Below are positions 52,078 through 56,342 of a stretch of 64,000 bases of DNA, one piece after another (the first letter of the stretch is position 1; each line of letters opens with the position of its first letter). The stretch comes from Bacteroidaceae bacterium (lineage in GTDB: Bacteria; Bacteroidota; Bacteroidia; Bacteroidales; Bacteroidaceae): contig JAFQUE010000092.1 of the NCBI GenBank assembly GCA_017408685.1, positions 25,313 to 89,312 of the forward strand, given 5' to 3'. The translations under genes and the position numbers were made by a program. Below the pieces are notes generated by a model. That model saw only the letters and a list, made by a program, of their open reading frames with translations, was not told the DNA's origin and ran no database searches.

Positions 52078-52105
52078 AAGGTGAAATCGCTAGCGATTTC
52101 ACCTT
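52078..52105. terminator. 28-nt perfect palindrome between sufE and the U32 peptidase gene
   Basis: Arms AAGGTGAAATCGCT / AGCGATTTCACCTT pair fully with no loop. It lies directly after the sufE stop and includes the U32 stop codon (52099-52101). A terminator for the two convergent genes is likely, although there is no T tract. Confidence 0.55.
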
Positions 52106-52121
52106 CCACCTTCCACCTTCC
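52099..52121 (-). repeat. GGAAGGTGGAAGGTGGAAGGTGA repeat at the end of the U32 gene
   Basis: On the minus strand three GGTGGAA-like units run into the palindrome. They encode the last residues (GKVEGGR) and the stop codon of the U32 peptidase. Confidence 0.55.
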
Positions 52122-53364
52122 CAGTCTTGTCTATGCGGTAGAGTTTGTCGCTGGGGCGTACTTTCCCCGGAACCTTGAATGAAACCCTGTCGCCCTTGCT
52201 CACCGTCTCCACGCTCTCCATGTTCACGCGCGGGTCGTCGAGTTCGATATATACGGCACCGGTGGTGGGACCTGTTATGAGAATCTTGTCCCCGGCCTTT
52301 ACCTCGCCCGCTTCAATGTGGAACTCGCCCACACCAAGGTTTGAGAAGTACTTTATTGCCTTGCCAATGTAGACCTTTCGCTCCGTGGCCTGTGAACCGT
52401 ATATGTTGCTCCATTCGCCCATTTTCTGTCCCTGATAGTATCCGTCCCAGAACCCGCGGTTGAATACTGTCTTCAGGCGTTCGTCCCAAGCGTCCTTTTT
52501 ATCCTCGGTGAATTCACCGGTTAGGTATGCCTCAAGAGCCTCGTTGTAGCAACCAACAACGGTGTGCACGTATTCGGGGCCGCGCGCGCGACCTTCAATC
52601 TTGAAAACACGTACACCGCTCTCTATCATGCGGTCCATGAAACGTATTGTCTTCAGGTCTTTGGGTGACATTATGTACTTGTTGTCAACCTCCAGTTCAA
52701 TATCACTCTCGCGGTCTTTAACTATGTACCCGCGGCGGCACACCTGCATGCACTCTCCACGGTTGGCGCTGCGTCCCAACTGGTGCAGCGAAAGGTAGCA
52801 CTTGCCCGATATGGCCATACACAACGCTCCATGGCAGAACATCTCAATGCGCAACAATTCTCCTTTAGGGCCGCAAATGTTCTCGTCGATGATTACCTTG
52901 TGTATCGCAGCCACCTGCTCCATGTTCAACTCGCGTGCAAGCACCACAACGTCGGCAAACTGCGCATAGAACTTCATAGCTTCGCTGTTGCTTATATTCA
53001 GTTGGGTCGAAAGGTGTACTTCTACGCCTACCTTGTTGCAGTACTGCATTACGGCAACATCCGACGCAATGACGGCCGAAATCCCGCTCTCCTTGGCTGC
53101 GTCTATTATGCGGTACATCATTGCAATGTCATCTTCGTAAATGATGGTATTCACAGTGAGGTAACTCTTGATACTATGCCTGTCGCATATTTCGGCAATT
53201 TCGCGCAAGTCGTTGATTGAGAATGCACTTGCCGAGTGTGCGCGCATGTTCAGGTGCTCTATACCGAAGTATATTGAATTGGCTCCGGCCTCTATTGCGG
53301 CTGCAAGGCTCTCCCTTGAACCAACAGGGGCCATTATTTCGAAATCACTTCTTTTGTAGTCCAT
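52099..53364 (-). CDS. peptidase U32 family protein
   Basis: 421 aa from MDYKRSDFEIMAPVGSRESL; seven codons of upstream frame were excluded. The family motifs are APVGSRESLAAAIEAGANSI, STQLNISNSEAMKFYAQFAD, the cysteine segment CMAISGKCYLSLHQLGRSANRGEC, and KIEGRARGPEYVHTVV. U32 proteins include collagenase-like proteases and the RlhA/TrhP tRNA/rRNA hydroxylases; the cysteine set and FKIEGRA fit the RNA-hydroxylase type as well, so the true activity is open. Its C-terminus is encoded by a purine-rich repeat. Confidence 0.88.
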   Translation of the reverse strand: MDYKRSDFEIMAPVGSRESLAAAIEAGANSIYFGIEHLNMRAHSASAFSINDLREIAEICDRHSIKSYLTVNTIIYEDDIAMMYRIIDAAKESGISAVIASDVAVMQYCNKVGVEVHLSTQLNISNSEAMKFYAQFADVVVLARELNMEQVAAIHKVIIDENICGPKGELLRIEMFCHGALCMAISGKCYLSLHQLGRSANRGECMQVCRRGYIVKDRESDIELEVDNKYIMSPKDLKTIRFMDRMIESGVRVFKIEGRARGPEYVHTVVGCYNEALEAYLTGEFTEDKKDAWDERLKTVFNRGFWDGYYQGQKMGEWSNIYGSQATERKVYIGKAIKYFSNLGVGEFHIEAGEVKAGDKILITGPTTGAVYIELDDPRVNMESVETVSKGDRVSFKVPGKVRPSDKLYRIDKTGKVEGGR

Positions 53365-53374
53365 AAGGGTTGTC

Positions 53375-53418
53375 GTTTGGTGCAAAGATAGTGAAATTTC
53401 ACTATCTTTGCCCCAAAC
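53375..53418. promoter_or_regulatory. 44-nt palindromic divergent promoter region
   Basis: The central 30 bp (53382-53411) are a perfect palindrome, GCAAAGATAGTGAAA and its complement. Flanking GTTTGG and CCAAAC extend it to 44 bp with one mismatched pair. Each half carries an exact -7 box pointing outwards (CAAAGATA at 53383-53390 leftwards; TATCTTTG at 53403-53410 rightwards) and a TTTG placed 23 bp from it. It should drive the U32 gene to the left and the DUF1016/dusB genes to the right. Confidence 0.7.
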
Positions 53419-53465
53419 TGATTTACAAGAATGGAGATAGCCGACATTGAATTCGGGAAATATCC
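53413..53465 (+). repeat. upstream copy of the dusB 5' end
   Basis: 31 bases (53435-53465) are identical to 54548-54578 inside dusB. The similarity extends upstream through the start codon into the leader (CAAACTGATTTACAAGA against CAAAACAGATTGACAAGA). Confidence 0.9.
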
Positions 53466-53505
53466 GGTGTCCCCGGTTAGTATAATGAAAACCCTGTTAA
53501 CATGA
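53431..53505 (+). pseudogene. orphan dusB start, now a 24-codon leader ORF
   Basis: ATG at 53431 opens a frame reading MEIADIEFGKYPVSPVSIMK and four more residues before TGA at 53503-53505. IADIEFGKYP is identical to the start of the intact dusB product 1.1 kb downstream; the rest diverges. Its stop overlaps the ATG of the DUF1016 gene (ATGA). It is therefore both a remnant of dusB and a possible translational feeder for the nuclease. Confidence 0.7.
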
Positions 53506-54515
53506 ATGAAGATATAGATAAAAATTACATCAAACAGTTTGATGACGTAGTTCTGCTGATTCGTCAAACACGTAACAATGTTGTCCGTTTGGCAAACACA
53601 GCATTGATAGAACTGTATTGGAAGATTGGAGAATATCTGCACAAAAGGATTGAAGCTTCGGAGTGGGGTAACGGTGTCGTCAAGCAATTATCGCTTCATA
53701 TAGCAAAACATAACCCGGGATTGAGTGGTTTTTCCGATAAGAATTTATGGAGGATGAAACAATTCTATGAAACTTATAGTGCCGAATCGAAAAAACTCTC
53801 ACCACTGGTGAGACAAATAAGTTGGAGCAATAATCTCGTTATTCTCAGCAGGGCCAAGAGCATTGAAGAAAAAGAATTCTATTTGCGGTTGTGTATTGCC
53901 GAAAGGTATTCAAAACGTGAATTGGAACGTCAGATAGATAGCGCTGTTTTTGAGAGGACAATGGTCTCTCAACCAAAACTCTCGCCGATGTTGAGAGAAT
54001 TGGCGCCGGATTCAGGTTGCATGTTCAAGGATAACTATGTCATGGAGTTTATTGGTGGAAAGGATTTCCCGAATGAACTTTCCATGAAATCTGCACTGAT
54101 TAAGCAAATGAAAGACTTTATATTGGAACTGGGAAAAGATTTCATTTATATTGACCAGGAGTTTAATCTTCAGGTGGGGTGCAGTGATTTTCGTATTGAC
54201 TTGTTGTTTTACCACAGAGAACTGCAATGTCTTGTTGCCATTGAACTAAAAACAGAGAAGTTCAAGCCGGAACATTTAGGTCAGTTGAATTTTTATCTCG
54301 AAGCGCTGGACCGTGATGTCAAAAAGGCAAAAGAGAATCCAAGTATTGGTATTCTGTTGTGCAAAGATAAGGATGATGAGGTCGTTGAATATGCATTGAG
54401 CAGATGTTTGTCTCCAACAATGGTGGCTGAATACCGTTTGTGCCTTCCCGACAAGAAAATGCTCCAGCAAAAATTGCGTGAGATATTTGAAGAAAACGAG
54501 ATTACTGTTTCATAA
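53502..54515 (+). CDS. DUF1016 (YhcG) family PDDEXK nuclease
   Basis: 337 aa. The N-terminal DUF1016_N helical domain (about 10-150) has ALIELYWKIGEYLHKRI, GFSDKNLWRMKQFYETY and LVRQISWSNNLVILSR. The C-terminal PDDEXK nuclease-like domain (about 180-330) has DFRIDLLFYHR and LVAIELKTEKFKPEHLGQLN, giving D...E-x-K. The family is sporadic and its role is unsettled. The gene is more AT-rich than its neighbours, uses codons such as AAA, TTA and AAT more, and lies between two copies of the dusB start: signs of recent insertion. No methylase or transposase accompanies it. Confidence 0.9.
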   Translation: MNEDIDKNYIKQFDDVVLLIRQTRNNVVRLANTALIELYWKIGEYLHKRIEASEWGNGVVKQLSLHIAKHNPGLSGFSDKNLWRMKQFYETYSAESKKLSPLVRQISWSNNLVILSRAKSIEEKEFYLRLCIAERYSKRELERQIDSAVFERTMVSQPKLSPMLRELAPDSGCMFKDNYVMEFIGGKDFPNELSMKSALIKQMKDFILELGKDFIYIDQEFNLQVGCSDFRIDLLFYHRELQCLVAIELKTEKFKPEHLGQLNFYLEALDRDVKKAKENPSIGILLCKDKDDEVVEYALSRCLSPTMVAEYRLCLPDKKMLQQKLREIFEENEITVS

Positions 54516-54525
54516 AACTTAGGCT

Positions 54526-54578
54526 CAAAACAGATTGACAAGAATGAAGATAGCCGACATTGAATTCGGGAAATATCC
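54526..54578 (+). repeat. downstream copy: intact dusB 5' end
   Basis: Leader and first 12 codons of dusB; partner of the repeat at 53413-53465. Confidence 0.9.
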
Positions 54579-55527
54579 CATCTTCCTTGCCCCGATGGAG
54601 GACGTTACCGACGAGGCATTCCGCCTGCTGTGCAAACGTTTCGGGGCCGACATGGTGTATACTGAATTTGTTTCCAGTGACGCACTTATACGCGATGTGA
54701 ACAGCACATTGCGCAAACTGAACATATATGAGCAGGAGCGCCCTGTTGCCATCCAGATTTATGGCAACGAGGTTGAACCTATGGTAGAGGCCGCAAAGAG
54801 GGTAGAGGCCGTTCGTCCCGATATCCTTGACATCAACTTCGGCTGTCCTGTAAAGAAAGTCGCGCGCAAAGGGTGCGGCGCAGGCATGCTGCAGAATATT
54901 CCAAAGTTGCTTGAGATAACAAAGGCTGTTGTGGAGGCCGTAAAGGTTCCTGTGACGGTAAAGACACGCTTGGGCTGGGACGAGAACAGCAAATGCATTG
55001 TGGACCTTGCCGAGCGGTTACAGGATTGCGGTATTGCCGCGCTCACTGTTCATGGCCGTACCCGTGCACAGATGTACACTGGCGACGCCGACTGGACTTT
55101 GATAGGCGAAATAAAGAACAATCCCCGCATGCATATTCCAATCATCGGTAACGGTGATGTAAAGACTCCCGAACGCGCCAAGGAGTGTTTCGACAGGTAT
55201 GGGGTCGACGCTGTGATGATTGGTCGCGCAAGTTTCGGACAACCGTGGATTTTCCGCGATGTAAAACACTATCTCGAGCATGGTGAACCGGCAGTGCCTT
55301 TCACTTTTGCTGAGAGCATGGATATCCTGCGCGGGCAGGTACGCGACAGCGTAGACTGGCTGGGCGAGCGCCCCGGAATACTGCATGTGCGTCGCCATTT
55401 GGCAGCAACACCTTTGCTGAAGGGATTACCCGACTTCCGTCCCCTGCGCATTGAAATGCTCCGTGCCGAGAAGGTCGATGAACTGATGGCTGTGCTGGAC
55501 AGGATAGTGGAAACGTACGGGGAATAA
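54544..55527 (+). CDS. dusB: tRNA-dihydrouridine synthase
   Basis: 327 aa from MKIADIEFGKYPIFLAPMED. It reduces uridines in tRNA with FMN and NADPH. APMEDVTDEAFR, DINFGCPVKKVARKGCGAGM with the catalytic Cys, and GIAALTVHGRTRAQMY with VMIGRASFGQPWIF are the family landmarks. The gene appears intact even though its original leader is 1.1 kb upstream; it may now depend on transcription through the DUF1016 gene. It is convergent with pgeF. Confidence 0.95.
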   Translation: MKIADIEFGKYPIFLAPMEDVTDEAFRLLCKRFGADMVYTEFVSSDALIRDVNSTLRKLNIYEQERPVAIQIYGNEVEPMVEAAKRVEAVRPDILDINFGCPVKKVARKGCGAGMLQNIPKLLEITKAVVEAVKVPVTVKTRLGWDENSKCIVDLAERLQDCGIAALTVHGRTRAQMYTGDADWTLIGEIKNNPRMHIPIIGNGDVKTPERAKECFDRYGVDAVMIGRASFGQPWIFRDVKHYLEHGEPAVPFTFAESMDILRGQVRDSVDWLGERPGILHVRRHLAATPLLKGLPDFRPLRIEMLRAEKVDELMAVLDRIVETYGE

Positions 55528-55547
55528 GCGAACACACCGGTTTGCCC

Positions 55548-56342
55548 CTACATTATTTCTCCTTCAATAATTATCCCATTGAATATTCTACCGGAACGGA
55601 TTCCCAACCGGCGGGCCGAGAAGAATTCCATGTGCCTGCTGTAGGTGCAGATACCTGCAATTTCAATATTCTCTTCCTTTATCCCGCACTCCAGCAATTG
55701 TATGCGGTTGGTTTCCCAAAGGTCTATGTGCCATTTGCTGCCGCCTTCAACTGCGGGATATCGTCTTGCAATACCGTTCATTGGGAACCCGGCAGTTTCA
55801 AAAGCGTTGTACACCTCATCACCCACCTCAAATGCGTCCAATGATATTCCCGGTGCAATAACAGCCTTTATGTCGGCAGGGCGGCAGCCATGTCCGTCAA
55901 TCAGGCGGTCAATGCATTTATGGGTAATGCGGGCGACGGTGCCGCGCCAACCGGCATGTATTGCTGCTATCAGACCTTTTCGTGTGTCGTGCAACAGCAA
56001 TGGAATGCAGTCGGCTGTGGAAACCCCAATGCAAATATCAGGCAGTGAGGTGATTACGGCGTCAACACCGTAAAGCCTTTCCTTCTGTTCTTCTCTGCCC
56101 AACTGCATGAAAGTGTTGTCAATGGTGAGCACTGTGCTGGCGTGTGTCTGGTGGGGCAGAATAAGGTTTGAATCGGTAATGCCGAGCATGCCGCATAAAT
56201 CTTGGCGGCACTCGGCCACGTGTGACGGGGAGTCGCCGCAATAGTCGGTAATGTTGAACCCTCCATAATTGCCGGAGCCTTCTCCACGCATTGTAGAGAA
56301 GGCTCTTGCTCCTGTTCCTATGTTGTATTCAAGAAGTTTCAT
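55548..56342 (-). CDS. pgeF: peptidoglycan editing factor / YfiH-family purine nucleosidase-like protein
   Basis: 264 aa from MKLLEYNIGTGARAFSTMRG. The YfiH/laccase-domain motifs are LPHQTHASTVL, GVDAVITSLPDICIGVSTADCIPLLL with Asp-Cys, and AAIHAGWRGTVARI, which together form the His/Cys metal site. Characterised members act as purine nucleoside phosphorylase/deaminases (FAMIN type) or prevent misincorporation into peptidoglycan. The start overlaps the TonB-like gene stop by four bases. Confidence 0.9.
   Translation of the reverse strand: MKLLEYNIGTGARAFSTMRGEGSGNYGGFNITDYCGDSPSHVAECRQDLCGMLGITDSNLILPHQTHASTVLTIDNTFMQLGREEQKERLYGVDAVITSLPDICIGVSTADCIPLLLHDTRKGLIAAIHAGWRGTVARITHKCIDRLIDGHGCRPADIKAVIAPGISLDAFEVGDEVYNAFETAGFPMNGIARRYPAVEGGSKWHIDLWETNRIQLLECGIKEENIEIAGICTYSRHMEFFSARRLGIRSGRIFNGIIIEGEIM

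Follow-up and report, generated by a model that had tools for sequence, protein, structure and literature searches.

What brought a nuclease gene to the very start of dusB, a housekeeping gene, and how did dusB come through? The locus lies in the window, by which we mean the whole 64-kb stretch of DNA analysed here, and comprises the following features.

52099-53364, minus strand: U32-family gene (PF01136, 2.8e-65), divergent from dusB and the left boundary of the empty site
53375-53418, no strand assigned: palindromic region between the U32 gene and dusB (inverted repeat of 22+22 nt, 95% complementary)
53410-53465, plus strand: left target copy, from the repeat alignment (dusB leader, start codon and 35 coding bases; it starts ATGG, not ATGA)
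53431-53505, plus strand: leader ORF of 24 codons, from translation (dusB remnant plus insert)
53466-54522, plus strand: insert of 1057 bp between the target copies, with coordinates from the repeat alignment
53502-54515, plus strand: gene for a DUF1016/YhcG-type PD-(D/E)XK nuclease of 337 aa, PADLOC candidate PDC-S02
54523-54578, plus strand: right target copy, from the repeat alignment, which restores the dusB start
54544-55527, plus strand: intact dusB (tRNA dihydrouridine synthase B)

The original prediction, made by reading the sequence, had pointed to 31 identical bases on either side of the DUF1016 gene. These prove exact (53435-53465 and 54548-54578) and form the core of a longer direct repeat of 56 bp at 91% identity (53410-53465 and 54523-54578). 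The core exceeds every other exact direct repeat in the whole 64 kb, and 200 first-order Markov resamples of positions 52501-56000 never contained an exact repeat longer than 16. A 37-mer from the right copy, searched with up to 3 mismatches, matches twice in the window and not once in 100 shuffles. Both repeats are copies of the target, as both align to the single dusB start of a congener (G031, L039 4260-4296). The five mismatches between the copies all fall in the outer 25 bases, and the coding bases agree at 34 of 35 positions. The gene opens with ATGA in 29 of 29 congeners and in the right copy, and with ATGG in the left. The dusB gene that begins in the right copy is whole, as had been claimed, scoring 328.4 bits with TIGR00737 against a DusB equivalog cut-off of 293.3. 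The left copy had been described as cut off after about 12 codons, which holds for its target-derived part (35 nt), but not for its reading frame, which stays open for 24 codons.

The DNA between the copies is, as predicted, AT-rich, with a GC fraction of 0.39-0.41 in 500-base windows compared with about 0.49-0.55 in its surroundings. Its one sizable ORF is the DUF1016 gene, with no methyltransferase beside it; no transposase was seen in the insert, which is too full to hold one besides DUF1016. The gene is complete, as the prediction had it: the protein matches PF17761 (1e-40, 139.4 bits against a gathering score of 32.8) and PF06250 (1.2e-51, 175.1 bits against 32.5). In an alignment of 19 DUF1016 sequences, E209, D233, E248 and K250 are invariant and E220 nearly so, and the E-D-ExK catalytic residues of YhcG/DUF1016 are present in the window protein. 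The predicted structure is weak (mean pLDDT 67.3, pTM 0.42), and sequence searches found no PDB relative at E values up to 1. The passages of PMC1189080 that treat YhcG (COG4804, PF06250) predict PD-(D/E)XK nucleases in bacteria, some archaea and phages, and the window protein resembles these in joining an alpha-helical N domain to an E-D-ExK nuclease domain; unlike the case in the window, the same passages report no mobility, target duplication or conserved neighbours. The PADLOC profile PDC-S02 matches residues 1-331 at 8.9e-127, and judged from this match PDC-S02 is DUF1016. PDC-S02 is presented, in the part of PMC10855318 that concerns it, as a single-gene phage defence candidate found through guilt-by-embedding, without experimental validation; the profile match thus makes the window nuclease a candidate anti-phage gene.

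The nearest full-length homologues, 64-72% identical, come from other genera of the family (one has an in-frame stop), and a fragment at a contig end in another genus (G076) reaches 80%. Within the genus, at least 20 of the 44 genomes contain DUF1016 matches, such genus-wide counts being lower bounds from which a contig-end copy in genome G033 is absent. Besides the window's own gene, the longer of these congener matches are at most 36% identical to it and short C-terminal fragments 39-48%. The low GC together with nearest homologues in other genera marks the gene as foreign. The start of the DUF1016 gene resembles the dusB start at 16 of 18 bases, letters that are absent from the homologues displayed; the likeness may have arisen by chance or be left over from the joining. 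Elsewhere in the same genome, contig C54 (L040, 158-3542) carries two more DUF1016 genes, one of them shorter, within a tandem duplication that spans about 1.7-2 kb and has diverged.

The prediction had proposed comparing the interval between the U32 gene and dusB in relatives, and the comparison bears it out. None of 29 congener loci has DUF1016 upstream of dusB in the stretch fetched (up to 1.5 kb, and 0.56 kb for L022), and the site is thus empty in these relatives. The U32 gene is divergent from dusB in 27 of these loci and co-directional in 2; the NCBIfam models nearest to it are TrhP and UbiU, both below cut-off. DusB protein matches were found in 42 of the 44 genomes, the window's own included, some being a paralogue or a fragment alone. 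A further 8 congener dusB matches of nearly full length have no DUF1016 on the dusB contig among the matches listed, which miss the copy in G033. Gene order around dusB is collinear in G041 and G022 except for the inverted U32 gene, and in G007 and G031 as far as fetched. In G041 and G022 (L034, L035), the two nearest relatives, the U32 gene is inverted in place with its flanking genes collinear, and a search of these stretches gave no inverted repeats.

The same comparison bears on where the copies came from. Across the whole gene, dusB of 8 congeners is about 80-83% identical to that of the window (17-20% diverged), and in the first 35 coding bases the best of them agrees with the window at 33. 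Since the two window copies are 34/35 alike and congener dusB is 17-20% diverged, it is the lineage's own dusB that appears to have been duplicated. Both copies would then derive from that gene, and the event would postdate the divergence of this lineage from the congeners sampled.

Starting from what is seen directly (the duplication, the empty sites of congeners, the likeness of both copies to the lineage's own dusB and the intact gene), we consider it quite probable that a solitary, horizontally acquired DUF1016 gene entered the dusB start by insertion with long target duplication. The prediction that a gene had been inserted at this start, with the target duplicated and the host gene restored, thus agrees with the 56-bp copies, the whole dusB and the empty sites. 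A bare unit of about 1.06 kb would have been inserted through recombination that duplicated some 56 bp of target. Most likely, repair synthesis copied the dusB start, changed template to incoming DNA with DUF1016 and then rejoined the target 56 bp further back; an alternative route would be the equivalent fill-in of two offset nicks or breaks. The product would have been kept because dusB remained whole. The clustering of the mismatches in the outer 25 bases counts against this account, and divergence after the duplication fits it only if unevenly spread.

The insertion also suggests how both genes may now be read. Upstream of the left copy, the palindromic region holds TATCTTTG at 53403-53410. 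The -7 box of Bacteroidota is TAnnTTTG, and the region is accordingly predicted to be a promoter shared by the U32 gene and dusB; by eye, the palindromes between these genes are alike in congeners, for instance L012, L016 and L024. The duplication begins at the end of TATCTTTG, so the promoter-like box was not copied, and the palindromic region remains ahead of the left copy. The TGA of the leader ORF (53503-53505) overlaps the ATG of DUF1016 (53502-53504) as ATGA. Given the 24-codon remnant and this overlap, DUF1016 is probably expressed from the promoter and start of dusB, the left copy serving as a start and coupled leader, and dusB would be read behind it as the next gene of the operon. 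Indeed, dusB starts 28 nt past the DUF1016 stop, and no terminator-like site was found on the plus strand between the two. The layout of the sequence therefore makes an operon likely, in which the dusB promoter is followed by the dusB start (serving as coupled leader), DUF1016 and dusB. The overlap itself is possibly accidental, because ATGA is common at the start of DUF1016 ORFs (83 of 193).

Insertion of this kind has a precedent. Nobusato, Uchiyama, Ohashi and Kobayashi reportedly described in 2000 the insertion of restriction-modification genes of Helicobacter pylori with long target duplication. As represented in passages of three citing papers (PMC3031569, PMC1643837, PMC4978471), long target duplication is described for these genes, and the window resembles them in having a strain-specific nuclease-type gene between long direct target repeats of variable size. 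The original prediction knew of no described mechanism of this kind; going by these passages, restriction genes offer a described mechanism of the general kind, and the dusB insertion is a clean case of it. In the window, by contrast, the inserted gene is a solitary DUF1016 gene from Bacteroidales with no methyltransferase, the duplicated target is a housekeeping gene's 5' end, and the leader overlaps in ATGA. The association of long target duplication with restriction-modification is called frequent in the passages of PMC3031569 and PMC1643837; the window insert instead contains a single predicted nuclease gene, and in our reading of those passages the association is not structural to this mode of insertion. 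DUF1016 itself has been placed on mobile elements, namely a Rickettsia plasmid element, integrative conjugative elements and a prophage gene map, in accounts whose available parts make no mention of target duplication at it, most subscription journals lying outside the search.

Other DUF1016 loci were compared too, as the original prediction had proposed. The 500 bp upstream were aligned with the 500 bp downstream at 193 DUF1016 loci, drawn from two sets (93 of 119 and 100 of 111 loci; the remainder had no 300-bp flanks, ORF or match). A loose filter took alignments with a score of at least 20 and adequate sequence complexity, and a strict filter took those whose repeat stands in just two copies nearby, no tandem paralogue being present. 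Loose duplications flank 27 of 193 DUF1016 genes, 11 of 694 neighbour ORFs, 9 of 115 other accessory genes and none of 53 core loci; the strict counts are 18 of 193, 4 of 694, 3 of 115 and 0 of 53. The accessory genes were RhuM (41 of 50 loci usable), Fic (36 of 50), ORF6N (20 of 30) and D12 methylase (18 of 30), and the core genes dusB (24 of 29) and pepT (29 of 29); a PDDEXK_9 control was excluded, as the flanks were long enough at only 2 of 30 loci. Alignments of the upstream side of one locus with the downstream side of another never reached score 20 (0 of 576). Long flanking duplications at DUF1016 loci are thus a real trace, with p=2e-9 under the strict filter against neighbour ORFs. Against the other accessory genes, which come from one order, unlike the DUF1016 loci, half of which are spread over many phyla, the strict comparison gives a Fisher p of 0.033, and the strict filter with a length of at least 30 bp gives 0.051 (16 of 193 against 3 of 115). 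The loose filter gives 0.14, a comparison with the first 77 controls 0.55, and all these values are uncorrected, several filters having been tried. The figures do no more than suggest an excess over other acquired genes, and a marginal one. The rows are also partly non-independent (L120/L135 and L184/L330 are apparently the same loci, and L343/L345 and L105/L131 share insertions). One locus dropped for its short flank, L110, has a flanking repeat of 52 bp at 87%.

The first cases had suggested a common duplication length of 51-58 bp, which was rejected on the strict range of 23-227 bp. Three repeats failed the complexity filter: that of L118 (58 bp), which by eye also occurs inverted nearby, and those of L100 and L141, which look low in complexity. 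Strict repeats of 65-162 bp also flank other accessory genes, among them an ORF6N gene (L514), a Fic gene (L476, 1975-3285, 162 bp) and a RhuM gene (L366, 1318-2319, 144 bp). In Escherichia coli, yhcG matches in 4417 of 5426 genomes; of 60 listed rows, the ones with no yhcG match show no similarity across most of the spot, and no clean empty site is seen. The yhcF-nanQ interval of this species is variable (L275, 12828-13955), and some listed yhcG copies are interrupted by IS elements.

The 27 loose-filter repeats were placed by eye relative to ORFs of at least 80 aa. The original prediction had extended the window case to a rule by which DUF1016 enters the 5' ends of housekeeping genes, and this general rule is rejected: strict duplications flank only the 18 loci, and among the 27 a clear 5' end of a host gene is found in the window alone. 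A weak second case, L241, concerns a gene with no Pfam match and a repeat in 3 copies. L202, where a 187-bp repeat ends in a ribosome-binding-like GGAGG, was rejected as such a case, the gene downstream being another DUF1016. Duplications of 3' ends are at least as common as those of 5' ends. In L107 the terminal 51 bp of pepT, with its stop codon, are repeated beyond DUF1016; further 3' ends are seen in L149 (a methylase-type gene), L302 (an oxidoreductase, with an overlap of 14 bp) and L343/L345, and in L341 (DUF4835), whose repeat stands in 4 copies and hence outside the strict set. The remaining repeats have no 80-aa ORF there, and L332, L173 and L315 were not assigned to a gene end. Even with insertion indifferent to position, selection would be expected to leave survivors at gene ends.

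Several other explanations can be weighed against an acquired gene inserted with long target duplication. One makes DUF1016 a self-mobilising selfish gene, whose nuclease cuts the recipient and so causes its own insertion with a long target duplication. Nucleases of this family would then drive their own insertion as bare genes, with duplications of variable length, in many phyla, and landing at a gene end would lend them the target's promoter and start, as at dusB, while the duplication would spare the host gene. The strict excess over RhuM, Fic, ORF6N and D12 methylase genes is in favour of this, as are the invariant nuclease residues and the range of the subfamily, which among the best 80 of 567 relatives covers Bacteroidota, Clostridia, Proteobacteria, Cyanobacteria and Woesearchaeota; relatives also occur on 462 plasmid and 14 phage records. 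We nevertheless hold it to be unlikely, as the excess fades under the other filters, the duplications have no common size, and accessory genes that are not nucleases, such as the Fic and RhuM genes above, show duplications too.

A ready-made cassette of DUF1016 and a dusB start might also have come from another strain, its dusB side joined through homologous recombination and its other side illegitimately. That DUF1016 inserts can be common to species is seen at pepT, where G001 and G033 have the same insert (99.6% over 490 bp); among 29 congener pepT loci (L246-L274), the insert is matched in L246 of G033 only. The far pepT flank is, however, 93-100% alike, so that descent explains the shared insert equally well. 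For dusB, the donor must have been very close for the copies to be 34/35 alike, and a comparison along dusB with 8 congeners gives no clear break in identity behind the start. Such an import is accordingly quite unlikely. The pepT mosaic, which spans L107 3395-4979 and L246 2596-3214, is an observation in its own right: G001 and G033 agree at 93-100% in the initial 900 bp of L246, at 78-99% in the part that follows and again at 97-100% from the pepT end onward. A recent exchange of a pepT cassette between diverged species was considered and dropped, identity being high on both sides; both may simply have inherited the insertion, one of them having had its pepT replaced.

Delivery of DUF1016 as cargo of an IS or transposon, by a transposase acting in trans, would account for direct target repeats, which transposition leaves. 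Usual IS target duplications measure 2-14 bp, and 56 bp is far above these; moreover, none of the 11 inverted-repeat pairs of at least 12 nt listed in the window lies at the insert ends, and DUF1016 is the sole sizable ORF, which together make this reading very unlikely. Free-standing homing endonuclease genes are selfish nuclease genes that sit within or next to a conserved gene whose function persists. The homing-like logic of the original prediction, a nuclease aimed at the dusB start, shares with them the nuclease fold family and a conserved gene entered but not lost, yet is barely credible, because the target stands whole in both copies, which leaves any recognition site that may lie within the 56 bp open to cutting, and because no common target was found: neither dusB nor U32 occurs in the flanks retrieved for 193 other DUF1016 loci, and the closest homologues scanned adjoin unrelated genes (WYL regulators in L120 and L121, an AAA_15 ATPase in L121, a Big_2 protein in L119).

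Insertion of a solitary DUF1016 gene with long target duplication thus gives a clear natural case in which a lone candidate-defence nuclease enters a genome with no obvious transposon and the target gene survives. That such entry recurrently leaves long flanking duplications as its trace is suggested by the survey, in which 18 of the 193 DUF1016 genes have them and 4 of 694 neighbour genes do. The old proposal made for restriction genes thereby becomes testable with one small gene.
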